64,000 nucleotides of DNA from Diplonema papillatum. Lineage: Eukaryota > Euglenozoa > Diplonemea > Diplonemida > Diplonemidae. The DNA is taken from positions 186,001 through 250,000 of the forward strand of contig JAPJBO010000198.1 in the NCBI GenBank assembly GCA_030068145.1, given 5' to 3'. Positions within the stretch are counted from its first letter, which is position 1; each line of letters begins with the position of its first letter. This document shows positions 1 through 51,975 of this stretch, piece after piece. The position numbers were made by a program, and so were the translations under genes. The notes under the pieces are model-generated. The model ran no database searches, was not told where the DNA came from, and saw only the letters and a program-made list of their open reading frames with translations.

Positions 1-170
1 GAATGCAGATGTCTGTAGCGATAGCCTGCTTTATTAGTCACAAGGTGACTACCTCTTCGATCGTACGTCGTGCTTCCGGCGTTTGCACTCTAATATGCTC
101 GCCTGTGATAGACTGCGGATAGACTGTGATAAACAGCAGCCAATTCGATGCGGTTCAGGGGGGTGGACTG
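1..170 (-). repeat. Degraded copy of inverted-repeat family C
   Basis: Read on the minus strand this stretch matches the family C block at about 43500-43670, including the order 'cagtctatc...', 'gaggtagtcacc-tgtgacta' and 'ctacagat-tctgcattc'. Family C elements elsewhere (22737-22917) end in GAGCCGGTCC-type inverted termini. No coding signal was seen. Confidence 0.6.
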
Positions 171-1310: not shown

Positions 1311-1774
1311 CATACTTAACCACTTCCGGACGAACTACCACTGTAGTGGTAGTTAACTCACGAAAGTTCGCGGGTGTCACGTTCGCGGGCGAGAGGCCAA
1401 ATAATGGTCGAAGGTGGTCGCTGTTTGCTGTATCGGAAAGATCCGACACAAAACTTTGAAATGCGTCCTTCACCCGGGCAGAAGTCCTGCTCCGAGCTCC
1501 AACGGATACCTGAGGTTCGCCATGGAGCCACCCCTTTTCCCAAATTAACCCTGCCCCCCTCCGTCCTTAAGTGGTTAAGAACCAGGAACTCCTCAGAACG
1601 GTTTTGTACCACATCTATTCACAGATTCACAGAGCGACCCCCTTCCGTGAAGAGTTAAAGGATTGAAACACGGTGCATCCCTTTTCAAGGACTCTCTCCC
1701 ATCATTGCACGAAAGGTTCCTCCTCCCCTCTCCTTGTTCTGTCAGTAGACTTTGCTAGCATCAAACATTAAGCC
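1311..1774. other. Unassigned, with a short perfect palindrome
   Basis: No gene recognised. A perfect 22-bp palindrome sits at 1333-1354 (AACTACCACT and its complement with a GT centre). Confidence 0.5.
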
Positions 1775-5155: not shown

Positions 5156-7428
5156 CTTGCCATCGCTAGGAGCATGTCTTGAGCGTCGGGCCAGGCTCCA
5201 GCGTTCGGTCGAGCTCCTTGCACGTCGATCGGATACACCGCAGTCGGTGGGTTTGGATTCCGCCCACGGATATGTGTCGACACGGAACTCTTTCCTTCGG
5301 CAGTCCTTGTTGTATTAGTGGTATGGTCCTTTGCCAGAGTGAGTCAATGCCTCTCATCTCATCTGTAAGACACGCATGCTCTTGACAGACGCTAGCGTCC
5401 AGCATTGTGCATGTGTGGTGGTTTTGACAAGGGGCTCACCGGACACTCGAGCGAGCTTCGTTACTTCATCGCTGTAGGTTCCCCCCTGCCCCGGGAGGCC
5501 TGCTTAGCTGTCCTCGGATTGGCGGTGCTGCTTTTGTTCTTGGACTTTTATTGGCATCGCTTGTGGGCTGCATCTTCAATTTCGCGCGATCCCAACGTCC
5601 TGTTCGTCTCTCCCGCTTCAGGGTGGCAGTTTTCCGGAGTCCCGTGTCGCCTGCGGCACGGCGCGCACCTTTTCGCCGGCCTTCCGTCTGCTCTCGTGCG
5701 GCGGCTTCGTACGCATGCAATACGGCCTCAAAGGCCTTGTCTGTCGGCCATTTCGGACCTTTTGATTTGGCGCCTCCGAGCGATGTCAGACGATCACTGT
5801 GCATTTCTTTCGCCGGGGGTGAAACGTCGTCTGCTCTGCGCCCTTCTGCGCAATTCTGCTACCTCTGCCTGCGCTCGCGTCTTTGGGATCAGCGCCCTTC
5901 CCTAACGATTACTAATACTGACCGAAAAGTGGTGTTACCCACTAGGAGCCTACCACTTCTATCAAACTTCTATATTCAGAGGGGGTGTGTCACTTTTTAT
6001 TTTGATATGGCAAAAATGACCACCCTATGGCAGCGCACACAGTCACCAAAGGTTTCACTAAATCGACCAATTTTCGATGCTATGAGCGCAGGTGTCCCCG
6101 GTCTCTCTGTTCCCGAGGGTTTAGAAAAAAAAGATGACCCCGCGTTCAACCCGATATAATTATATTTAGATCATACCGGGAGCGCGTGATACGTGTGATA
6201 TGTGCATGAAGTGCCTCCAGGAGTGTGGTGCCATGCACACGACTACGACTGCAGCAACAACTACGACGGCAAGGTGCAAAGTTCCAAAACGACTACTTGG
6301 ACAGGCGTCTTCAAGCTGTCCGAATTGGATGTTTGTTGTGAACGCTCCTATCTATGCACCCCCCAGAAGTATTCTGCTTCGGATGCTACACAGCGTGCCT
6401 TTCGGCGGAGCAGAACCCATCTGCCTCTTGATATCCTCTGGAAGGAGCAAATTCGGGCAAAGTGCCGACCACGGCTGCGGTGAGAACAATGCCACACGCA
6501 TTCTTTATCGAGGTTCCGACACTGCCGCATGGTTTTGCAACACAGCTCGTTGACATGGAATACAATGAGAAGGAGAACATGCAACGTTTTGCGATTGAAG
6601 AATTCGGATGCAGTTGCAGAGAATTCTTCAGGAGCCTGCTGACAGCCGCAAAACCTCGGCCGTACAAGGAATACAACGCATTATCGCATCTTGGTGGTGG
6701 GATGGTAGTGCGCCTGATACCAGCCGGCAGCAAAATAAACGGGTACTCTTCAAGACGGCACAGAAGGTGGGGCGTTCCACAGGGTTGTGCACAAGCTGGA
6801 CATCGTATTATCATGCAGGATTCGAAGGTGAGCGTATCTTACTCTCACTTCTGCAAGCGACGACCGTCCAAACAAAAAGAGCCGGCGCAGTTAGCGCGAT
6901 CGGAGACGGAAACTGTCCACAGAAACTCCCGGTACTCTTCCTCTTGCTTCTCTGGGAATGACTGATATACCACGTATTTTAGAACAAACACTTAGAAGAC
7001 TTACCGAGCAGCTAGCGGTGGTATTTGGGCACCTTTAGCTAAAATGCTGGTCGGGTGGCCGGGGGTAGGCAAAAGGCCCTACCAATCCAGAAGCTCAGGA
7101 CAGGCTCGACGCTCCTGTCCTGAGGGCCACCGTGTGTATGCCAGACGGAAAACTCTCAAATGCCTTTTGTGGTTTCTGGTTAAATGGATGAACCAGGGAA
7201 GGAACAAATCTGCACATAACAATGTCATGTACGTTCAGGATGATCGTGAACAAAGTTATGCTGAAACAAGGAAAGATGGCAGCAGAAGCCGCACCACTCC
7301 TCTCCCAGATAGCACTGGGCGCTGACGAGCAGTGCATGGCGGGATTGCCGCGGCTGTTTTGAAATACGGTGACCACGTCAGCAACGCCGGTGGCCCGTCG
7401 TTTTGGCGCGGCTGTGATGCAAAACGGA
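5156..7428. other. Unassigned region with open frames of unknown meaning
   Basis: Several frames are open (minus 5804-5466, a basic Arg/Lys/Ala-rich 112 residues; plus 6202-6483 and 6462-6965), but none shows a family I recognise. A possible splice donor (GCG|GTGAGA) lies at the end of the 6202 frame, so an unrecognised spliced gene cannot be excluded. The motif 'cttctatcaaa-ttctatattcag' occurs at about 5956 and again at 8311, marking a minor repeat. Confidence 0.35.
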
Positions 7429-8000: not shown

Positions 8001-8455
8001 GGACAACACCCTTGTGAGCTGGTGGCAGGGAAAGGCCGAGGCGAGCCATCCAGTGCATCAGCACAAGAAACGCAAGGTCGCTTGCACATTGGCCCCTTGC
8101 CAAGATGAACATCACAGGTGGCCAGAAAGTACTGGTGGTGTTGGCAAGGCCAGTGTCTTTACCTCGCCCGAAATGGGTCCAAAGGGCCGCGTGCAGCGCG
8201 AACCACAACCGCAGTTGGGCTTGCGCGCAGAAAACGGGAGTTCGGCTCAAGAAAACGTCAGCGTTGTGCACCATCATTATAACAATAAAAATTGACACCC
8301 CCTACTCCATACAACTTCTATCAAATTTCTATATTCAGCATTGTGGGTAACACCAGAAAGGATCGAATGTTTCTTGCCGGCCCTTTCATTGTCACCTTCT
8401 CCGGGTATTCAGGTTCTTATATACCTCTTACCAAGAAAACAAAGCACCAACTATA

Positions 8456-9571
8456 ATGAGGACTAACTGCCTTGTGTTCGCGGCAACGTGCTTGTGTTTG
8501 CTTGAGTCTGCAAGCGGCCAGAGGGGAGTCATCATCATCGGTGACGATGCCCCTGGGGATGAAGCGCCTGTGGATTTTGAGTCGAGCTCACCCGAAACGG
8601 TCGCTCCTCGCACAATCACACCCGACACCGGCGGCAATGTGGTCTGCATAGTAGATGCAGACTGCCAATCGTTGGATACGAAGGCAACGTGTGCCAGCGA
8701 CGGGGGTTGCACGTGCTCGGCGGGCTTCGACTCGTTCTCCGTCGGAGGTATTGTCATCCGTGACTGTTTCCCGGCCAGCTTCAACCACACCAGCAAGCGC
8801 CCTGCTACGCAGACGGGCAGGTTTGCGAATGGAGACTTCGCGGCGTTCACCGACATCGTCCGCGCCGTGTTCATCCGGGAGTGGGAGAAGGCAACGGGAC
8901 TGAAGCTGGATACCGTGGTGTTTCGAGCGGGGTCCGTCGTGTACACGGCGACGTACGAAGCCAACACGTTGGAGTTGGCCGCGATGGGGGCTTCGATGCA
9001 GGCCTTCACGGATGGGCTTGATGCAGACCCGGTTGCGAGCAAGATCTTGAGCCCGAGGAGTTTGACTGGTATTAGCACTGGGTTCGCTGCTAATACCACG
9101 TGCACCCTCGAACACGCGAGCCAGACGATTTTGGTGGGGAGTCTGTGTAATGCTGTCGAGTGCGATGCTGGCTACGTGCTGTTCGTCGCCGGAACCGGGA
9201 ATCAAATCTGCATTGCCGGGAGAGTGGACGACTCGGACGACGACCTCTCAGACAGTGCTATCGCGGGCATCGTCATCGGCAGCGTGTTCGGGTGCCTGCT
9301 GCTCCTGGCTGTGCTTGTCTTCATCGGCCTCGCGGCGAAGAAGGCCAATTCGCCGCGCGAGGAATCCGAACAGGCACCGCACGCAGTCGGCACGTTCGAA
9401 GAGGCGGCGCCCCCCACGGCCCCTACCGAAGCCGCGGCGGGGACCCTGGCGCCGCCGATGGACCAATCCGGGGCAGCGCTGTCCGTCTACAACACACCCT
9501 ACGGCGGCGAAATGGAAGCCGACCCCGCGCAGTCGCAGCTCCTCGTGTCAAACGCCCACCTTGACGCGTGA
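8456..9571 (+). CDS. Type I membrane protein, Cys-rich ectodomain (surface family member 1)
   Basis: Single-exon frame of 371 residues. The N-terminus MRTNCLVFAATCLCLL is a signal peptide, shared almost exactly with the paralogue at 18916-19998. Next come an acidic stretch (about 29-60), a small Cys motif at 64-87 (CIVDADC, ATC, GGCTCSAGF), a 110-residue globular part (about 100-215), a second Cys block (about 216-252: TCTLEH, LCNAVECDAGY, ICIAG), an acidic stalk DDSDDDLSD, one transmembrane helix (about 268-294) ended by AAKK, and a 75-residue cytoplasmic tail with YNTPYGG and MEADPAQSQLLVS, both conserved in the paralogue. Function unknown; a surface receptor or adhesin-like role is only inferred. 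ATG is chosen because the signal peptide begins there; a TATA-like TTATATACC lies about 31 bp upstream. Asn-X-Thr sites (HTS after N110, NTT) suggest glycosylation. Confidence 0.88.
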   Translation: MRTNCLVFAATCLCLLESASGQRGVIIIGDDAPGDEAPVDFESSSPETVAPRTITPDTGGNVVCIVDADCQSLDTKATCASDGGCTCSAGFDSFSVGGIVIRDCFPASFNHTSKRPATQTGRFANGDFAAFTDIVRAVFIREWEKATGLKLDTVVFRAGSVVYTATYEANTLELAAMGASMQAFTDGLDADPVASKILSPRSLTGISTGFAANTTCTLEHASQTILVGSLCNAVECDAGYVLFVAGTGNQICIAGRVDDSDDDLSDSAIAGIVIGSVFGCLLLLAVLVFIGLAAKKANSPREESEQAPHAVGTFEEAAPPTAPTEAAAGTLAPPMDQSGAALSVYNTPYGGEMEADPAQSQLLVSNAHLDA

Positions 9572-10164: not shown

Positions 10165-10290
10165 ATTTTCTTTTGGGAACCCCACCGATCACCACAAGCA
10201 CGCACTAAGCTGAACTTCACAAGCATTCAAAAGGTCGAAAGACACCAATCTGTACGTCCATTCGGATCGTTGGAAACACAAAAAAGAGAG
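10165..10290 (+). repeat. Family I interspersed repeat, copy 1
   Basis: The block 'ttcttttgggaaccccacc-gatcaccaca-gcacgca-taag' followed by GGTCGAAAGACACCAATCTG and 'cgtccattcgg-atcgt-ggaaacaca' recurs at 12745-12872; the 3' half alone recurs at 45134-45190. It is preceded by an A17 run at 10141. No ORF. Confidence 0.8.
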
Positions 10291-11970: not shown

Positions 11971-12290
11971 GACTGAGCATATCCTCTCTAATTCTACCTC
12001 TTTACTCTAACCTCTGTTGCAGCCAAAACGTGGACTGTCGAGCTTTCCTTGCGAAGGCAAGACGCCTGGGCTGCGACCAACACCCGTTCCAGCGTTTGGC
12101 ACGTTCTCGTGCCCGATGCTTTCCTCTCCTCTTTGCCCCGCGTACGATAATGAAAGTAACGTTCTGGTTCTCAGGGTCTTCTTTCCCCGCTGACAGTTTC
12201 AAGTCCGTTCCCTTGACTGCTGTTTCGCCAGATAGTAGGTAGCGACAGAAGGAATCTCATTGGTCCATTCATGCGCGTCTTTAATTAGAA

Positions 12291-12328
<38 letters not shown>

Positions 12329-12436
12329 CCCGCTGTTTACCCGCGCTTGACCTGATCTCCCGATTACTGACACCGACGGAAGGAGGTCCTGCATGGAGCT
12401 ACGAACCTCCTCCAAGCACTCACCCGTAGTGCCATC

Positions 12437-12744: not shown

Positions 12745-12872
12745 CAAAACATTTCTTTTGGGAACCCCACCCCCGATCACCACAGGCACGCATTAAGATG
12801 TACTTCACAAGCACACAGAAGGTCGAAAGACACCAATCTGCACGTCCATTCGGGATCGTCGGAAACACATAA
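12745..12872 (+). repeat. Family I interspersed repeat, copy 2
   Basis: Matches 10165-10290 over its length with scattered substitutions ('ttttgggaaccccaccc...gcacgcattaag', GGTCGAAAGACACCAATCTG, 'gggatcgtcggaaacac'). Confidence 0.8.
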
Positions 12873-13961
12873 AATGATAATTTTCTGAACAGGCAGTTCT
12901 TTTTTTGGGTGTTGGCCAGAATCAGTCAGGGCACCATGCCAACGAAGAAGCGGGCGAGATTCGATCGATCACAGGGCACACTCGCTGGATTTTAGCTCCA
13001 AATGCAGAACCTGCGGGGCATGCTCGAGTGCGCCAGGAAGGGGAAGTGTCAGCAGCTCAAGTCGAAAGCGCAACATCAGCAAGTTCTGGTACCAGGACGT
13101 ACCTGTGCACGACTCTGCTCTGAGAGGACAAGGACGCCTCCTCCCTCGCGCTCCGTCTCTTCCGATGTTAGTTCCCACCGCATCGAGCCACAGGGGGGTC
13201 GTGTTCGAGTGTTCACGTTTGCCTTGGAGTGGGGGAAACCTGGATTGACGCGGTCTGCCTACGCGCGGGGCTCTCAAGCACTGGGGTGGCACTTTGCTCT
13301 GCTCTCCCAGCCCCATTTTGACGAGTTAGGTGAAAAAGAAGCCGGTTCTTCTGAATGTGTGCTTCACTTGCCACAGTTTCTTCTTGTTACAGTAACTCGC
13401 TCTCCGAGGATTCGCATACCAATTGACGCATGCAGGAGCTGCGGGCGGGAATTTTGCAATCACAGAGAAGTCCAGCAGTGTCCAACGTGGGACGAGAAGC
13501 GTCGGAAATTTCTGCCAAAAGGCAACATTCCAACAGCCCAAGTTTCACCCACTGCACTCCCAAATTTCCCGCCAAATCTCTCAGACCCATACAAGCCCCT
13601 GCTTATGGTTAAGTCCAAAAAACTATAGTTTAGCCAGCGGCCGGGTGTCGTGGGTGGGCAGCGGTAGTGGGTGGTCATTTGGTGGGATGTCGTGGAGGTG
13701 GGGTGGAAGATGCTACAGTACGGTTACTGCATCGTTCTAGCAACGTGCACCCTCAAGTTTGGAACCTGCAGCACTGGCCCATCAGCTTTAACCTTTAACT
13801 TGGCTAAATTTCCGCGCCTGCGGCGCTGGCATTTTTGGCTTGTGTAATACACATGTTCCATATCGTGTTGCCAAGAAGACCGCGCCCTGCTCAGTAGTGA
13901 CAACCACAAAGAGGAGCACCCTGTCGGGTACATAAGTGTGCACTTGACTCGCATCAAAAAG
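12873..13961. other. Unassigned; one open frame with a Cys/His cluster
   Basis: A frame at 13002-13628 (208 residues) contains CRSCGREFCNHREVQQC near its C-terminus, which could be a small zinc site, but the rest is not recognisable and a GTG/ATG choice is not supported by homology. It may be part of a decayed mobile element. Nothing else was identified to 13961. Confidence 0.3.
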
Positions 13962-14599: not shown

Positions 14600-15128
14600 T
14601 AAGAAATCAACTGCCTTCGGGTAGGCTAGTCTACCATACTGGGTATCCCGATGGGCGCTAACGCCTCTCCAGACATTGCCAATCTCTTCTGCTACGCAAA
14701 GGAGAAGAGGTACATGATGAGACTCCTGGCTGAAAGAGACATCCGACGGGCTACACTCCTCAGCATGACGCGCCGTTTTATCGATGATCTGCTTTGTTTC
14801 GGGACGAAACCTCCACCCGAGTCCGTCTACAGCATGAGGTACAAGCAGACGAACTCGTGCGTGGGGGATTCGACTTTCCTTGGCATACGGATACGGCACG
14901 AGGTCTCCGACGCGTCTGGAAGGAGGTACATGCGACTGTCGGTCTTGGACAAGGCGAAAGCCTACCCGTGCGTACACGTCAGTCCTCTCGACGGCCCCAT
15001 CAAACTTCGGTTCGAGCATCCTCATTGGGGCCCTCGTTCGCAACGGTAGGATCGCCAACAACATATATGATTTCAAGACCGAAATGAACAACGCGGTTCT
15101 GAAACTCATGCGGCGTGGTTACCGTTAA
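14600..15128 (+). pseudogene. Reverse transcriptase, palm/thumb part, frameshifted
   Basis: Synthesises cDNA in the parent element. Seen: GRLVYHT (frame of 14620) then, after an extra G at about 14641, LGIPMGANASPDIANLF (motif B), RFIDDLL (motif C, 14773-14799 region, the two catalytic Asp present), STFLGIRI (motif D/E region), LSVLDKAKAY, then after a second shift near 14990 GALVRNGRIANNI and MNNAVLKLMRRGYR, and after a third shift near 15125 KSGFRKWLLDTYPEAKFG joining the downstream frame. Motif A and the fingers are missing or unreadable upstream. At least three single-base shifts mean it is not a working enzyme. The match to the family runs through the thumb, so the junction with the next domain lies near 15200. 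Confidence 0.8.
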
Positions 15129-15196
15129 AGAGTGGATTCCGCAAATGGCTGCTGGATACCTACCCGGAGGCCAAATTTGGCGAACATTGCGGGAAG

Positions 15197-16789
15197 GTGC
15201 GTGCGCATTTCTTTTGGCTCATACACGAGGTGGAACGCACACTATCGTTGCCAGAGCCGGCTGCCACGGACCGTGCGATCGAGCGCCTACTGGCGGAAAA
15301 ACCCTTCGTGAAGTACAAGGGCCGCCCCCAACCTGCTCCAGAAGCTGAAGATGACTCCCCCCGATCACCGCCCACCGAAGCACCGACCCAACAGACTGAT
15401 TCGACCGTCCACCGTGAGTCCACACGGAAAGGCCACAAGCGAAAGGCTGAGGAGGACGAACAACAAGTTTCAAAGCGACGCTGCTCGAACACCCACAAGC
15501 CGATTCCGACAGTTCCCCCTCCATCCACGTGCTGCCGATCAATTGTCTGTACGCGCCCGCCTTCCGTGAGACATGACCCGACGCTGTTTGGCCCCACCGG
15601 CCTCCCGAATCTGGGTAACACGTGCTTCCTTGGTACGGTGCTGCAGCTCCTGCTACGGGTTGAACCGATCAGAGAGATGTACTGGAGCCTTGCGCAAGAC
15701 CTCTCCAACTGCCGTGGGTTTCTCGGGGACTTCCTAGCGTACTTTGCTATGCTGGCAAGCTCTCGCAACAGTGGTGACCAGCGCAGCCGGGATTGCCGGA
15801 GAATGGGTGTCGAAGCCATCCTGAGCATGTTCGCAAACTTCTGCGATGCACAACAACACGAATCACACGAAGCTTTGGTAGCGATCCTCAACGCGACCAG
15901 TACGACGCTGGGGCCGGACGAAACAGGGACCCCCTGCCCGGGCTACCAGCTCTTTCTAGCATGCCTGGAGAACCACTGGACCAACTCGGCACGATGTAAT
16001 GCATGTGGACGCGCTTCTACCAACAGTCAGGCGGTACAATGTCTGCAAATCCCTTGCGGGAGGAGGCTGGAAGATTCTCTCTACGTGCACGAGTTCATAA
16101 ATCCGGAGAGAGTATGCGACTGCAAAGCTGTAGGCACGGTGGTTGAGAATATGGACCTCCGTCTGACAGCTGACTGTGTTCTGATGCAATTTGGCATCTA
16201 CACGAGAAACGGTGCCAGGCGCCAGAATGACGTGGAATTGCCCCCTTTCTTCGGACCACCGGACCATCTGCTACGCCTCGCAGCCGTCGTGGTGCACATG
16301 GGGGAGGATACGGGTAGTGGACATTTCGTCACATACGTTGCACAAGATACGGGATGGATCCTCTTCGACGACCTGCGAGTTACTTTCGTCGACGACATTC
16401 CGTGGGGTGACGTTTACCTCGCGGCTTTTGTCCGGATCTCCCGGAGTGCCCACAACATGACAGTCCGTGCCCCGTCACCCTCCATGGTGCTTCCTACTCA
16501 AGATCGACTGCCCGACTCGTCTGCACCCCCAAATTCAGCTGGTAATTTGATGGGCCGACAGTCGGAAGGATCACCTGACTTACTCTACCCCCTTGGTAGT
16601 TCACCATCCTGCCCGCCCTTACCGAACTCCCAATGTCTGACACCGCATGGTCAGTTGTTTGAGCAGTTGGCGGAGTCCCCGGTGCTGCGATGTCAACACT
16701 GCTCCATCGAGTCTACGAAGGATGGCCAGAAGTTTCAAGGTCTGAGGGGACTCTGGGCGCATGAGAGACTCGCGGATGTGAGGTTCTGA
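15197..16789 (+). CDS. Ubiquitin-specific-protease-like domain plus zinc finger, continuous with the RT frame
   Basis: About 530 uninterrupted codons. After the RT tail (1-40) and a charged, Pro-rich linker with HKRKAEED and SKRR (about 41-125) comes a USP (C19) fold: Cys box GLPNLGNTCFLGTVLQLLL (Cys at 15623-15625; usual YMN after the Cys is FLG), a zinc-type pair CNACG and CDC in the fingers, and a His box VVHMGEDTGSGHFVTYV (His at 16322-16324) followed by WILFDD (Asp). All catalytic residues are present, so removal of ubiquitin or a ubiquitin-like protein is plausible. The C-terminal RCQHC...F-GLRGLWAH looks like a zinc finger as found at retroelement ends. There is no in-frame ATG before the Cys box, so it is read as part of a longer RT protein or from an unseen exon. 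15197 is simply the first GTG. Confidence 0.75.
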   Translation: MRAHFFWLIHEVERTLSLPEPAATDRAIERLLAEKPFVKYKGRPQPAPEAEDDSPRSPPTEAPTQQTDSTVHRESTRKGHKRKAEEDEQQVSKRRCSNTHKPIPTVPPPSTCCRSIVCTRPPSVRHDPTLFGPTGLPNLGNTCFLGTVLQLLLRVEPIREMYWSLAQDLSNCRGFLGDFLAYFAMLASSRNSGDQRSRDCRRMGVEAILSMFANFCDAQQHESHEALVAILNATSTTLGPDETGTPCPGYQLFLACLENHWTNSARCNACGRASTNSQAVQCLQIPCGRRLEDSLYVHEFINPERVCDCKAVGTVVENMDLRLTADCVLMQFGIYTRNGARRQNDVELPPFFGPPDHLLRLAAVVVHMGEDTGSGHFVTYVAQDTGWILFDDLRVTFVDDIPWGDVYLAAFVRISRSAHNMTVRAPSPSMVLPTQDRLPDSSAPPNSAGNLMGRQSEGSPDLLYPLGSSPSCPPLPNSQCLTPHGQLFEQLAESPVLRCQHCSIESTKDGQKFQGLRGLWAHERLADVRF

Positions 16790-17445
16790 TCCACGTCGTT
16801 TCAGCCTCATCGGATTCTTGATTGTTGGCTGGTCTGTTTTACGTTTACCCTGACGAACGGGAGACAACTCGAAGTGTCTGCACGGGTGAACGCACACTAA
16901 CATGAGAGGATGGAGGCACGCATATACCGCCTGGCCCTGTGCTAGGCGTAGTTTGAGGTTGTACTTATTTCCGAACAACCTACCACGAGTTTATCCACCC
17001 ACACACCCACCTTTTACCCCTTTCTTTTTGTTTTCTTTTTCCCGCCCGATGTCGCTGATGACTAACGGACCGTCGGACCCGTCCCAACGGGGTTACTTAT
17101 GGAAGTTACAATGAAGGCTTAGACCGGTACGGGCTACATGGCAACCCCTGCTCAACAAAGTGCTCGCCTGCCTTGATGGCACTTGCACCTTAAAGAACTC
17201 AATGCTCAACATGTAGAACGTGGGGGGCCCTTGATCACTTTCATTACGGGTGTGGTCGTGGTGTCGGTCGCAATAGTCGCTTTGCTAGCCGAAGAGAGAG
17301 ATACAGAGAAAAAGAGCGCCAGAGAGAAAAGAAAAGAAAACGTTATCTTCCGGAAAAGAAGGGTTACGCGAACCCCCGAAAAAATAATTACCCCAAAAAA
17401 ATAAAAAACAGAAAAAAATAAGTAAAAGGTAAATTTCCCTTATAT
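16790..17445. other. No gene; possible family K-like fragment
   Basis: 17118-17220 shares 'gaccggtacggg...ggcaaccc-tgctcaac' with 29705-29745 and 'cttaaagaactcaatgct-aaca' with 59105-59126. 17280-17430 is A-rich. No coding feature. Confidence 0.45.
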
Positions 17446-18727
17446 CCCGCCCCTAACAAATATGTGCCCTTATATCTCGAACCAATATAAGGGCATCAAA
17501 TTTGTTTTGGACCCAACATACTGGGGCCAAAAAAATCGAAAAAAAATCGAAAAAAGTTCGAAAAAAGTTCGAAAAAAGTTCGAAAAAAGTTCGAAAAAAG
17601 TTCGAAAAGTTCGAAAAAAGTGCGAAAAAAGTTCGAAAAAGTTCGAAAAAAGTTCGAAAAAAGTTCGAAAAAAGTTCGAAAAAAGTTCGAAAAAAGTTCG
17701 AAAAAAGTTCAAAAAAAGTTCAAAAAAAGTTCGAAAAAAGTTCGAATTTGGTCATTTTTTTGTCAGAATTTTGGTCCAGTTCAAAATTTGGGTCAAAATT
17801 TGGTCGAGTTTTTGGACAGTCTTGGGCGGCCCACACAGAAGTATGTTGAAAGCCAACACTGATGCAGCCGAACTTAAGCCGGGGTACCTGGCTTTAGAAA
17901 ACCCCCCAGGTGACAACAAACCTGCCCCCAGAGCAAACTGGAACTGGTCTTAGTTTGTACTTTCTAGCTTTCATTCGATACGTTTGCAGTAGTCCCGCAA
18001 ATACACCCAGCAGATCAAAGAAAGGAGGAAAGGTGGAAAATGCAGATCAAACGGGAGTAGAATGTGCGCACGCTTATCCGTCTCTTGACTTACTATGCCG
18101 TGTTCTGAAAGCTGTCGAGGGGCCCCTCCATAGGTTCTCGCATGATTCGCTCGCCTTTGTAGTAAGCTTCGCAATTGTGTTCTTGCAATATCTAACCGAA
18201 TGGTGGGTGGCGGATTTCCGCGCTCGTGCGCAAGACACAATTATGCTGCTTTTGCAGTGCAAGCTGAACCCGGTTCGCGACTTCGGTCGCGGTAAAGTGT
18301 TACAAAGTCTTCAGCTTTCAGATCCGGATACGCGTATGCAACAGATAGTTAGAGGTCACTTGAAGGATACCCGTGTGCAGCGTTCGAAAGAGTTTGCGTA
18401 TCTGGAGTCTTATTTTTTTGGGGGGAAGGCCCTTTTGACCCTGTATTTTTGAGAAGAATTTTGAAACATCCCGAAGTTGGGACTCAAATTTGGGACCCAA
18501 ATTTTGACCCAAAATTTAGACCCAAATTTTGGGTCCAAAATTTGGACCCAATACTTGGGCCCAATACTTGGACCCAACATTTGGACCCAAATTCTGGACC
18601 ACCCAAATTTTGGACCCAAATTTTGGACCCGCCCTAAAAACCCGGTTCAAAACAAATTTGGTGCCCTTATATCCCGAACCGGGATATAAGGGCACAAATT
18701 TGTTTTGACCGGGATATAAGGGCATTA
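17446..18727. mobile_element. Foldback element FB1 with cargo ORF
   Basis: Terminal inverted repeats of about 80 bp: the left end (17446-17517) and the reverse complement of the right end (18645-18727) share CCCTTATATCCCG, 'aacaaat-tgtgcccttatat' and ATAAGGGCA-CAAATTTGTTTT. Each end contains its own smaller palindrome built on CCCTTATAT/ATATAAGGG. Inside the left arm is a GTTCGAAAAAA array (17540-17745); inside the right arm is an ACCCAAATTTTGG array (18480-18640). A unique region with an open frame lies between them. No clear target duplication was found; TAAAT occurs near both ends. Confidence 0.75.
17910..18452 (+). CDS. Cargo ORF of foldback element FB1, unknown function
   Basis: 180 residues in the unique centre of FB1. 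The translation has normal complexity and helical character, with one hydrophobic stretch (FAIVFLQYLTEWW) and charged segments, and no family I recognise. It ends where the right arm begins. The first ATG (17910) may not be the real start, as the first 40 residues look less protein-like than the rest. Coding status rests on its position, length and composition only. Confidence 0.45.
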   Translation: MTTNLPPEQTGTGLSLYFLAFIRYVCSSPANTPSRSKKGGKVENADQTGVECAHAYPSLDLLCRVLKAVEGPLHRFSHDSLAFVVSFAIVFLQYLTEWWVADFRARAQDTIMLLLQCKLNPVRDFGRGKVLQSLQLSDPDTRMQQIVRGHLKDTRVQRSKEFAYLESYFFGGKALLTLYF

Positions 18728-18915
18728 CACCTAAATAAAAACACAAACCGACGGTGACCCCCAAAACCTTTTTCAACCTTTCCAATTCCCTTCAAGCTAA
18801 ACCATTATACAACGGCCCCCCCCCTTTAGTTGTCGTCGGGGGAAGAAAAAAAAAACGACTCCAGCTCGAAAAAAAAAGCAAAACACACCAAAGAATCGCG
18901 AAAGGAAGACTCGCA

Positions 18916-19998
18916 ATGAGGACGAACTGCCTGGTATTCGCGGCGACGTGTTTGTGCGTTCTGGTTGCCGTCAACGGGGTGACTCCGTTGGACGCGGATG
19001 AAGCTCCCGAAGACTTGGACACAGATGCTCCTGAGACCGAGGCTCCTGCGACCCCGGCTCCTCTGCCGGAAGAAGTGGCCATCTGCGAAATTGATGAAGA
19101 CTGCCGGACTGCGGATCCGACGGCAACGTGCGACGCCACCGGGGGTTGCGTTTGCTCCGCGGGCTTCGAGCCAGTCACCGTCGACGACGTCTTGATCCGG
19201 GACTGTTTCCCGAGCGACGCGGACCCGACGAACGTGCGCTCGGTGACGCAGAACGGCACCTTCCCGAACGGGGAGTTCGCGCAGCTCACCGCCGCCATCC
19301 GCGCGCGGTTCGTGGCGAAGTGGGAGCAGGTGATGGGCGTGAACGTCACGTCGGCTTTCTTCATCGAGGGCTCCGTCCTGTACGTCTTCGGGTTCAAGGC
19401 CACCAACAGTCAGTTGGCGGGTATTTCTAAGGCGAAGCCTTCCCTGATCGCTTCTATCGAGCAAGACCCTGCGATGGCTGCCGTCCTGAAGCCGAGCACT
19501 CTGCAAGTTAAGACTACGACCGCCGTGGGCACCTGCTTCGTTGAGCACGCGAGCCGGACGTCTGTTTTGAAGTCGGTCTGCGTGGCTGTTGAGTGCCAAC
19601 CTGGCTACGTCCTGTTCGTTGCCGGGTCCGGAACGCAGATTTGCATCGCCGCGCGTGTGGACGACTCAGACGACGACCTGTCCGACGGAGCAATCGCAGG
19701 GATTGTCATCGGGAGCGTGCTGGCGGTCCTGGTCGTCGTCGGCGTGCTGGTGTTTGTCTGCCTCGCGATGAAGAAGGCGAACGCCCCGGCCCAAGAAAAC
19801 ATGAACGTGTCTCCCGCCCACAAGTCCGAGGCGCCGGTTCCCCCCACGGCCCCCAACGAGGCGGGCAACCCGGCCATGGACCAGTCAGCAGCCGGGCTGT
19901 CGATCTACAACGCCCCGTACGGTGGTGGCGACATGGAAGCCGACCCCCGCACCCAGTCGCAGCTCCTCGTGTCGTCGACCGCCCAGATCGAATCGTAA
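18916..19998 (+). CDS. Type I membrane protein, Cys-rich ectodomain (surface family member 2)
   Basis: 360 residues from ATG 18916; the upstream in-frame extension is rejected because the signal peptide MRTNCLVFAATCLCVL starts here exactly as in the 8456 gene. Order: signal (1-20), acidic/Pro-rich segment (24-55), Cys motif (57-84: CEIDEDC, ATC, GGCVCSAGF), globular domain (about 105-205; GSVLYVFGF pattern might be a SEA-like fold, inference), second Cys block (207-243: CFVEHA, VCVAVECQPGY, ICIAA), stalk DDSDDDLSD, transmembrane helix (about 259-286) with KK stop-transfer, tail with YNAPYGGGDMEADP and SQLLVS. Conservation of both the signal and the tail with the 8456 copy suggests the tail binds a partner. 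It lies about 190 bp after FB1. Function unknown. Confidence 0.9.
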   Translation: MRTNCLVFAATCLCVLVAVNGVTPLDADEAPEDLDTDAPETEAPATPAPLPEEVAICEIDEDCRTADPTATCDATGGCVCSAGFEPVTVDDVLIRDCFPSDADPTNVRSVTQNGTFPNGEFAQLTAAIRARFVAKWEQVMGVNVTSAFFIEGSVLYVFGFKATNSQLAGISKAKPSLIASIEQDPAMAAVLKPSTLQVKTTTAVGTCFVEHASRTSVLKSVCVAVECQPGYVLFVAGSGTQICIAARVDDSDDDLSDGAIAGIVIGSVLAVLVVVGVLVFVCLAMKKANAPAQENMNVSPAHKSEAPVPPTAPNEAGNPAMDQSAAGLSIYNAPYGGGDMEADPRTQSQLLVSSTAQIES

Positions 19999-28726: not shown

Positions 28727-28993
28727 AACACGGACCAAGGAGTCTAACACGTGTGCGAGGCTTAGGGTGTCAAACCCACAAGCCACTGAAAGGGAGATGT
28801 GCCTATCCTTGAGGACGCAGCACCGCCCGATCCCGATTTACTGAAAGGGATTTGAGGTTAAGTACACTTGTTGGGACGCGAAAGATAGTGAACTATGCCT
28901 GGATAGGACGAAGCCGGGGGAAGCCCTGGTGGACGTCCGTTGCCGTGTTGACCTGCAAATCGCTCGTCAAAGCTGGGTTTATGGGCGAACGAC
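28723..28993 (+). pseudogene. LSU (25S/28S) rRNA fragment 1
   Basis: Begins TGAAACACGGACCAAGGAGT and continues with CTAACACGTGTGCGAG; later blocks are GATTTGAGGTTAAGTACAC, TGTTGGGACGCGAAAGAT and GTGAACTATGCCTGGATAGG, then 'ctggtgga', 'tgacctgcaaatcg-tcgtca' and 'gggcgaa'. These are consecutive, highly conserved blocks of eukaryotic large-subunit rRNA (domain II region). It is bounded on both sides by unrelated DNA and carries changes in invariant positions (GGGACGCG for GGGACCCG, AGATAGTG for AGATGGTG), so it is a dispersed pseudogene piece. Confidence 0.9.
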
Positions 28994-29263
28994 CCATCGA
29001 AGTGTCGGCGTCGTCGGTCCTAGCACCCCTTGGAAACCCTTTTCGTAGCAGACATTGATCCGTTGTGACGTGTCTTCGCACTGGATGCCCAGTGTCCGAA
29101 CCAGCTCGGGTTCTCGCAATTTCAACATGAATATATACCTATATCTTCCCCGTCCGTAAAGGGTTAAGGTATTAGGACATATGTGCTGGAGGGAACACGT
29201 TTCGGTCTGGCTGCCGCGCTGCCGAAAATGATTGGACACGAGATTTCCGAGTGATTCGATCTC

Positions 29264-44509: not shown

Positions 44510-46460
44510 TCATAGATGGCCGTTATATAACGTTATATAACGTTATATAACGTTATTCCCGGAGTTATTTGTTACCCCCCCCCTAAATCCAGAAAAACCG
44601 TTATTGACCGTTATAAAACCGTTATTTGCCATTTTTGGTCGAAAAATAACGTTATTTGACCGTTATAACGTTATATAACGTTATAATAACGGTATAATAA
44701 CGGGTTTTTACCAGTCCATGGGAGGTCACACTGTCCTCCAGATTTTGGTCATTTTTGGCCATTTTTGCCACATTTTCCAGATTTTGGCCAATTTTGGTTA
44801 TTTTTGCCAATTTTTCCAGATTTTGGTCAATGTTGACCAGTTTTGCCGTGTTTTCCAGATTTTGGCCCATTTTGGCCGTTTTTACCGATTTGGCCAGGAT
44901 TGGCCATTTTTGCCATGTTTTTCAAAAATTTGGCTATTTTTGCCGATTTTTCCAGGTTTTGGTCATTTTTGGCCAGTTTTGCCATGTTTTCCAGACTTTG
45001 CCCATTTTGGCCGTTTTTGCCGATTTTTCCAGGGTTTTGGTCATTTATGCCCTGCCCCTCACCAGAGCTATTCTTGTCTGAGTTTCTTAAACCCGCACAA
45101 GCTCGAACAGGCAGTCCGTGCGCGGAAAAAAAAAAAGGTCGAAAGACACCAATCTGTACGCCCATTCGGGATCGTCGGAAACACAAAAACACGTGTACCG
45201 CCCCACCCGCTTCGATTTCAGCCACACTAGTCTTTCCAAAGGGAATATCGACTATGCCTGCGAAAAGCTCCCCGAAGGTCCAGCCGAAGCCGAAGGCTCA
45301 ACCTAAAGCTCAGCCGAAAGCTCAGCCGAAGACCCCAGGTACACAGCGCAAACGGCCTCGCGCCGAAAGTACGGATAGCAACAGCAGCAGCAGCGCCGCC
45401 TCGGTTGCAAAGGCGCGACGCGGAAGGAAGAAGGTGGCGGAAACGCTGCGCGTCGAGGCCTTGTCCCGCGACCTGGCATTGACTGGCCCCAGCGTTCTCC
45501 CTGTCACGAAACCACCAAGTAAGAGCCCGGAACAACGATTCATCGACCGGATCAAGAAAACCGACCCCGGGCTGGCTGGGTTCTACGGGAAGCGCCAGCT
45601 GTGACTGCTCGACTTTGCATGTCTCGTGCTCATCATGCACCCATATTTGGTACTGGGACCTTGTCTGACTGGCATAGTACGCAACGGTCTGCCGAGTGGA
45701 CAAGCTTGGACAAGTTGGACTCCAGTGGCCGGATCATGCTGGTGACATCTGCTGCCTCACGAAGGACACTGCAAACGACCGTTACGGGCCACCGACTGAG
45801 GGACACGCGCCGGAAACCCAAAACTGCAGACATCCACATCCCAAGAACAACATCGCACAGTGAAAGAGTCATGTGAATCCGGAAGGATCGCGTTTGTCGC
45901 GCTTGGGTGGAAGTCCGCAAGAAAATAAGTAAAAGAGAAAAAGCTCTGGGGAGGGGCTATACGGACCCCTGAGGACCGGTTACTACGAATTCTTTTCGGA
46001 CCAGGGTTTGTTTCCGAACAGTTTTTGTGACCGGGATCCAAAAATCGGCAAAAGTCTGGAAAAATTGGCAAAAATGGCCGAAATTGACCAAAATCTGGAA
46101 AATCGGGAAATCTGGAAAAATCGGAAAAAATGGCCGAAATTGACTGATCTGGATAAATCGGCCAGAGTGGCCAAAATCTCAAAATTGTCCAAAATCTTGA
46201 AAAATCGGCAAAAATGGCCGAAATCTGGAAAAAATCGGCAAAATGGCCAAAACCTGAAAAAATCGGCAAAATGAGGAAAAAATGACAAAAATCTGGAAAC
46301 ATGGCCAAAATCGGAAAAATTCTAAAAACCGTTATTTGCGTTATTTTTTCCGTTATTTTGCGTTTTCGACCGTTATATAACGTTATATAACGTTATGTAA
46401 CGTTATCACCGTTATAACGTTATATAACGTTATATAACGTTATCAACCGGCCATCTATGA
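44510..46460. mobile_element. Foldback element FB2 with cargo gene and 21-bp target duplication
   Basis: Exact 12-bp ends TCATAGATGGCC (44510-44521) and GGCCATCTATGA (46449-46460). Next to each end is a run of CGTTATATAACG palindromes (44520-44710; 46370-46445). Further in, the left arm (44740-45050) is an array of CATTTTTGGCC/TTTTCCAGATTTTGG motifs and the right arm (46030-46320) carries the complement (GGCCAAAAATG / CCAAAATCTGGAAAA types). The arms can pair into a hairpin of roughly 0.5 kb with a 0.9-kb loop holding one gene. The 21 bp at 44489-44509 are repeated exactly at 46461-46481. Two other copies of the surrounding family B repeat (48336-48356; minus strand near 36305) have this target only once, so this is a true insertion with a long target duplication. 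Confidence 0.85.
45254..45604 (+). CDS. Small basic protein, cargo of foldback element FB2
   Basis: 116 residues from ATG 45254. The N-terminus is a PKAQ-type repeat (PKVQPKPKAQPKAQPKAQ), then a nuclear-localisation-like QRKRPRAES, a Ser run, a second basic patch KARRGRKKVAETL, and a C-terminal part with PPSKSPEQRFIDRIKKTDPG and GFYGKRQL. The charge and patches suggest a nuclear, nucleic-acid-binding protein, but no family is recognised. Third-position GC is high like that of host genes, and unlike the AT-rich arms. It lies alone in the loop of FB2, preceded by half of a family I repeat. It could be a captured host gene or an element protein. Confidence 0.6.
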   Translation: MPAKSSPKVQPKPKAQPKAQPKAQPKTPGTQRKRPRAESTDSNSSSSAASVAKARRGRKKVAETLRVEALSRDLALTGPSVLPVTKPPSKSPEQRFIDRIKKTDPGLAGFYGKRQL

Positions 46461-51286: not shown

Positions 51287-51474
51287 GGACTCGTGAGGAT
51301 CCTAGCAGCACCCTGCTGGCGAGTGGCTGAGCCGGCCGGGGGAGGAGGCAAGGCGCACGGCCGCTGTGCCTTGCCTTCGCGCCGCTTCGCTTTGGAAGCT
51401 CAGCTGTTTTGCGGGGGGTTCGGCACCCTTGCGCCGCGCCCTGCGCACGCGCGTGTCTGACTCCTTGGTCCGCG

Positions 51475-51975
51475 TTGGCAAAGACGAGTGGCAGAGGATC
51501 GCACAGGTAAAGCGAATGATTGGAGGCATGGGGGAAATCGCTTCCTCGACCTAATCTCAAACTTTAAATGGGCGTGAGCTCGGGGTTACTTCATTGAACC
51601 CTGACGTAGAATCCTGGTTCTAAGTGGGCCATTTCTGGTATGCAGGACTGGCGACGCGGGATGAACCGAGAGCTGACTTAAAGTGTCCGAGTGATCGCTC
51701 ATCAGATCCCACAACGGGTGTCGGTTCATCCTGGGCCCTCGTTGCATCTGGACCGACCCAGTAGCCTTGCCTGTGGTTTGGAGCGGCCGGGAACTCCGGT
51801 TGGCATACCGACTCAGCACATCTGGGCTTTCGTTTGCAAAGACGAGTGGCAATGTCGTACCTGAGCCCTTGTTGCATCCGGACCGACCCCGTAGCTTTGC
51901 CTGTGGTTTGGAGCAGTCGGGAACTGCCGTTGACATACGGACTCAGCATCTGGCATTCGTTCCTGCCCGGTGCTG
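51475..51975 (+). repeat. Tandem duplication downstream of eIF2B-alpha
   Basis: 'gttgcatc-ggaccgacccc-gtagc-ttgcctgtggtttggagc' then 'gggaactccgttg-catac-gactcagca' occurs at about 51743-51820 and 51869-51950 (offset about 126 bp). 'caaagacgagtggca' occurs at 51479 and 51837. Confidence 0.8.

Follow-up and report, generated by a model that had tools for sequence, protein, structure and literature searches.

LINE retroelements of the Dualen/RandI type carry OTU cysteine proteases. Among Penelope-like elements, Naiad and Chlamys have CxC and DKG motifs before the reverse transcriptase (RT), have no hammerhead ribozyme, are subject to 5′ truncation and use simple-sequence targets; we know of no element of this type with a ubiquitin-specific protease (USP). 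Craig et al. 2021 are said to have described both as Penelope-like elements with an N-terminal GIY-YIG nuclease. Here we analyse a retroelement of the marine protist Diplonema papillatum, present as a damaged copy in a 64,000-nt window (the whole stretch of DNA that was analysed) within contig C198 and followed through 271 Mb of nuclear DNA of this species. The element shares with Naiad and Chlamys the N-terminal GIY-YIG domain (residue 86), a CPC motif (388), a DKG motif (near 420), 5′ truncation and the lack of a hammerhead ribozyme; in contrast to those elements as we know them, it also has a USP domain and a finger C-terminal to the RT thumb. The Dualen/RandI LINEs likewise have an accessory cysteine protease, but of the OTU rather than the USP family and in a different class of element.

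Among other mobile elements, passages of one survey describe OTU and Ulp1 proteases in Ginger1, Mutator and Helitron proteins and a Trichomonas vaginalis protein combining Transposase_11 with peptidase C19 (PMC2836005). As presented there, Ginger1 likewise has a C-terminal ubiquitin/SUMO protease, but is a DDE DNA transposon using the OTU or Ulp1 families, and the T. vaginalis protein likewise joins C19 to a mobile-element enzyme, but to a DNA transposase. Passages of a review mention ubiquitination-related motifs in Burro and OTU in Helentrons, which thus also have an accessory cysteine protease but of the OTU family and in another element class (PMC6431247). The initial annotation of the window knew of no retroelement lineage with a USP domain, and in the open-licence literature, searched mostly by title and start of abstract, we likewise found no description of a retroelement with a USP (C19) domain. 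The Diplonema genome paper lists retroelement gene models, and passages of it name neither Penelope-like elements nor USP (PMC10161547). Our main reading, to which we give a probability of roughly 60%, is that a Penelope-like non-LTR retroelement with an N-terminal GIY-YIG gained a USP between thumb and finger, that selection kept it and that the element uses it for local deubiquitination.

Architecture of the element and of the window copy

The intact element is about 6.5 kb long and has one open reading frame (ORF) of about 1,500 residues, in which GIY-YIG, RT, thumb, basic linker, USP, linker and finger follow each other from the N to the C terminus; we hold this architecture to be practically certain. 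Single frames of 1,585 or 1,590 amino acids are present in copies L031, L032 and L034 (1,585 each in L031 and L034), and L031 and L034 are 99.9% identical across 6,495 bp with different flanks. Residues are numbered on the L031 protein from the first Met of its conserved part, an assumed start that gives about 1,498–1,499 amino acids. The only families to reach the Pfam cut-off in L031 are GIY-YIG and UCH, and the APE or RLE nuclease plus OTU of OTU-bearing LINEs was not found. For GIY-YIG (PF01541), the whole L031 protein scores 22.6 bits, equal to the cut-off, its N-terminal piece 25.2, P0011 23.6 and P0012 24.5, with L032 under the cut-off at 20.0; one element protein contains this domain together with UCH (1.3e-20). 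Because RT families matched only weakly and none reached its cut-off, in Pfam or otherwise (RVT_1, 0.058 for the window palm; a group II RT model, 5.9e-6 for P0003, far under the cut-off), the RT is identified by its motifs and its relatives; a PDB search with the RT matched no RT. GIY-YIG and RT motifs in a single ORF, as expected of Penelope-like elements, make it probable that the element belongs to them. Its layout differs from the canonical one, in which GIY-YIG is C-terminal and accompanied by a hammerhead ribozyme: GIY-YIG is N-terminal, and a search of L031–L033 against Rfam gave no match up to E 1, hammerhead ribozymes included.

The window copy is 5′-truncated, split by a nested insert and damaged (Table 1). 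Its palm and thumb share a frame, and the palm end between them (14970–15125) lies in another, the result of two short deletions that show in the alignment with an intact relative, L033; stops at 15047 and 15068 also separate palm and thumb. A programmed frameshift within the RT was considered and rejected, since intact copies have a single frame. The initial annotation had described an RT–USP–zinc finger fusion at 14600–16789, with the thumb running into a C19 domain without a stop. The latter holds: the ORF at 15071–16789 (+, 572 aa) opens shortly 5′ of the thumb (KSGFRKW, 15128) and carries thumb, USP and finger in one frame. The fusion itself is a single frame in many copies, except that the palm end is out of frame in the window copy, and of the proposed bounds 16789 is the end of the ORF, the element copy itself extending over 14636–18827. 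The catalytic Cys (codon 15623), His (codon 16322) and Asp in WILFDD (codons 16355–16372) are where they had been placed. The window copy has QHESHE in place of the QHDAHE found elsewhere and lacks the final ligand of its finger. DIPPA_17872 of D. papillatum covers 16% of the window USP ORF at 89% identity, with 95–100% for the RT palm.

Table 1 Parts of the window copy (window positions) and of the L031 protein (residues)
Feature	Location	Strand	Basis
5′-truncated, probably Penelope-like element copy, split by 17428–18732 insert	14636–18827	+	blastn with L031/L033: 14636–17157, 17203–17427, 18733–18827
RT palm (GIPMGANASP, FIDD)	14636–14968	+	tblastn P0001, 95% identity; frame map
RT palm end, out of frame in window copy	14970–15125	+	tblastn P0002, 94% identity, different frame
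RT thumb / C-terminal extension	15128–15331	+	alignment to P0003, P0005, P0008, P0009 via L031/L032
Linker 1, low constraint, basic stretch GHKRKAE..KRR	15332–15595	+	inter-subfamily dN/dS 0.39–0.46
USP (C19/UCH) domain; Cys 15623, His 16322, Asp 16367/16370	15596–16396	+	Pfam; motifs; USP46 alignment
Linker 2, low constraint	16397–16684	+	inter-subfamily dN/dS 0.45–0.56
C-terminal Cys-Cys-His(-Cys) finger, then stop codon	16685–16789	+	motifs; similar finger in P0003, P0005, P0008, P0009
Element 3′UTR	16790–17427	+	blastn
Nested insert, inverted-repeat ends, foreign to element	17428–18732	+	blastn gap; inverted repeat I1 17427–17479/18680–18732
Element 3′ end: ATTATACAACGG + C-tract	18733–18827	+	blastn; sequence reading
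L031 GIY-YIG (PF01541)	86–129		
L031 CPC	388		
L031 DKG	near 420		
L031 RT GIPMGANAS	774		
L031 RT FIDD	817		
L031 thumb	942		
L031 basic linker	1044		
L031 USP	from 1100		
L031 finger	1463–1492		

Of 30 distinct copies (33 loci, three copies being listed twice), 21 end in A(C/T)AACG(A/G) and a C-tract of 6–29 followed by differing flanks, the other nine being without that end within the stretch examined. Several copies are 5′-truncated, some directly behind a C-tract or another copy, and truncated copies stand in tandem in L032 and L073. No clear target duplication was seen among the few copies with both ends.

Other features of the window were noted alongside. The nested insert, of about 1.3 kb, has internal short tandem repeats and may be a DNA transposon of the non-autonomous kind. 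Copies of a short dispersed repeat, no longer than about 92 bp, lie at 10192–10283, 12780–12873 and 45133–45192, and one is nested in the element 3′UTR of L033 (near 7059–7150, reverse complement). Two ORFs, 8351–9571 and 18739–19998, resemble each other, and both contain MRTNCLVFAATCLC and what looks like a membrane span; read from stop to stop, the second overlaps with the 3′ end of the element. Pieces of 28S rRNA are found at 12264–12381 (−), 28744–29013 and 51464–51668; a passage of the genome paper puts such pieces at about 3,600 in the genome (PMC10161547).

Copies, subfamilies and constraint on the USP

Searching the genome with the window ORF gave 996 candidates, of which the best 76, including the window copy, were scored. 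There are thus at least 76 matches to thumb–USP–finger, some only partial, and chance is excluded by their number together with the freedom from stops of 75 of the 76 and the location of 25 of the 76 within open frames no shorter than 1,400 amino acids. By protein identity to the window ORF, we distinguish class A (about 99%, to which the window copy belongs), class B (about 86%) and class C (about 76%). Class D, found through its RT, comprises at least 25 matches that are 98–99% identical to P0010; the frame reaches 1,400 amino acids in 18 of these 25. The gene models P0010 and P0013 suggested a USP-less relative, an idea rejected because the genomic frames contain the domain: USP and finger were read in frame in L035/L065 and L066, and a UCH match adjoins all 25 places. 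In class D2 (L067 and L068) the frame ends differently and no intact finger was seen. The USP is present in all five subfamilies seen (A, B, C, D and D2), and neither an RT–USP junction nor a separate gene start between the two, the pattern that would have spoken against the fusion, was seen in other copies. At least 149 UCH matches were scored in the genome; assigned by score and place rather than row by row, they divide into about 112 from the element, one from a metallo-β-lactamase-like (MBL) gene and about 36 from other USP genes. Equal-score UCH matches in 334-aa frames at G000:C287, C1461 and C1783 perhaps represent another repeated USP gene.

From thumb to stop, 20 of 34 sequences are more than 99% identical to L031 (mean pairwise 99.8%; two copies counted twice), and such near-identity implies that the element has moved recently. 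The 1,459-aa frame of L073 (G000:C97) is composed of a truncated class C and a truncated class D copy and has two USP domains, so that a long open frame alone does not prove a whole element.

A USP-less sister was sought with P0003, a USP-less protein, as query, the best 83 of 1946 candidates being scored. A USP match lies on the same contig in 75 of the 83, contigs with several matches having been compared by eye; one of these contigs, C207, has its USP match far away and carries a copy of class A that shares 99.7% identity with L033 and ends inside the linker. The remaining eight have the USP whole or nearly whole (five), partial (one, C1409) or mostly deleted (two). The two deletions (L074 and L079; G000:C4 and C1875) are in frame and have shared flanks, and look like one event. 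No USP-less lineage was seen among these best 83 of 1946. C1409 is the one copy with a broken USP, and stops occur in one of the 76 scored matches.

The USP assignment of the initial annotation is confirmed by Pfam, with UCH (PF00443) matching residues 176–442 of the window ORF at 1.4e-18 and 67.9 bits (cut-off 23.9) over profile positions 1–240 of 254, and a profile built from the USPs of three subfamilies aligns with USP46 at 4.2e-11 (positions 21–293 of 312). All 33 loci read besides that of the window (30 distinct copies) retain an intact Cys box, QHDAHE, GH(F/Y)VTYV and WILFDD, a favourable sample in that these are the best-scoring loci. Between subfamilies A, B and C, Nei–Gojobori dN/dS is 0.06–0.07 for RT, 0.05–0.07 for thumb, 0.19–0.22 for USP (0.20–0.24 for the same pairs in a second alignment) and 0.17–0.30 for the finger; the linkers flanking the USP (0.39–0.46 and 0.45–0.56) provide an internal control, against which the USP is constrained, though below the level of the RT. 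When D, D2 and the MBL gene are added, USP dN/dS is 0.15–0.24 across the 15 pairs, dS being saturated in many. We consider the domain a likely active deubiquitinase. A single-sequence AlphaFold model, made with no alignment, had a pLDDT of 37.8, too low to be of use.

Origin of the USP and its probable capture by a host gene

Five ENA-labelled RT proteins on short contigs match P0001 (P0003, P0004, P0005, P0008 and P0009). Leaving aside P0004, whose C-terminal end is unlike the others, they share 50–54% identity with L031 where the RTs align and have the same element-type thumb and a similar Cys-Cys-His-Cys finger, but differ from the Diplonema element in having a Ser-rich linker and no UCH match when scanned. 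Since the finger that lies beyond the USP is kept in these USP-less relatives, the USP probably entered between thumb and finger; the other reading is that the ENA relatives lost it. A viral or phage origin was rejected, no relative being found in viral_contigs (searched with P0003 and the window ORF) or among phages (P0003) in searches that reach close relatives only.

For comparison, we took 18 of the 34 UCH matches above 86 bits, picked for near-full profile coverage. One, on contig C9 (L064/L069), is 50–58% identical to the element USP, far above the other 17, which are distant (best 21–37% identity; branch 2.61) and were rejected as a source. In a midpoint-rooted tree with long branches, the C9 USP is sister to the five element USPs with support of 94/92, just below the mark for firm support, inside a 100/100 group. 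It belongs to an MBL–USP gene (L069:602–2704; G000:C9:544801–546903) with a 702-aa frame matching PF00753 (3.2e-8) and UCH (6.5e-32), and the sole genome match of its lactamase part is itself (one match, two candidates). The finger is absent, and the DNA 3′ of the stop is 88% identical over 121 bp to the 3′UTR of element D. The best account of this shared 3′UTR is that an old copy of the element became joined to a host gene; the MBL–USP gene thus probably carries an exapted retroelement USP, and the reverse course, in which the gene donated its USP to the element, is less likely. We give even odds to the fuller history, that the RT protein has had a working deubiquitinase since before the five subfamilies split and that the host then took the domain.

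Possible roles of the USP

The initial annotation had suggested that a USP could take ubiquitin off the element's proteins or blunt silencing by the host. If the USP serves local deubiquitination, as we favour, the steps may be as follows. The GIY-YIG nuclease would nick at a C-tract and the RT would prime at the nick, by target-primed reverse transcription. Such a nick-and-prime model agrees with copies that are truncated on the 5′ side yet fixed at the 3′ end, and a passage on canonical Penelope describes a nuclease that nicks and an RT that primes there (PMC11167929). The finger and basic linker could tether the protein to nucleic acid or direct it to the nucleus. The USP would strip ubiquitin locally, with the protein of the element itself as the most likely substrate, which would spare the ribonucleoprotein from degradation; failing that, the substrates may be proteins of chromatin or of repair at the target. 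Self-protection as the main role of the USP is a tentative proposal, which we put a little short of an even chance.

A rather less likely possibility is that the USP is directed at the host: at the nicked target it would deubiquitinate histones or repair factors and thereby open up chromatin or guide repair towards completed integration. Its tethering to a nuclease and a finger within one protein would suit that role, as would the best relatives found in a solved-structure search with the USP profile, USP46 and USP12, which are grouped with USP1 as UAF1-regulated enzymes with repair and histone substrates. However, USP46/USP12 match only modestly above other USPs (62 sequences at or below 1e-3), and substrate choice cannot be read from this. 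The presence of the USP in every subfamily seen could also reflect counter-defence, in which ubiquitin-dependent silencing or restriction is reversed in trans to the benefit of all copies; this is improbable given that the element encodes one polyprotein with no obvious release of the USP, and the two USP-deleted copies do not support rescue in trans, because the flank is common to both.

That the USP is a dispensable passenger, host sequence captured in frame, would accord with its weaker constraint relative to the RT, but is very unlikely in view of a dN/dS near 0.2 between subfamilies, the much laxer linkers on either side and the catalytic motifs intact in all 33 other, best-scoring loci. 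An assembly or annotation artefact at the RT–USP junction, for which one might cite the omission of the USP from P0010 and P0013, is next to impossible: there are many copies with different flanks, and the class D genomic frames hold the USP that the models omit.

Passages of its genome paper describe D. papillatum as probably haploid and report gene replacement (PMC10161547), so that the benefit of ubiquitin removal to a selfish element is directly testable. Ubiquitin and SUMO proteases of the OTU and Ulp1 families recur across unrelated transposons; here a C19 protease occurs in a retroelement, joined to an RT and a nuclease. With many intact, near-identical copies in the genome, such elements appear to bring their own tool for the ubiquitin system of the host.
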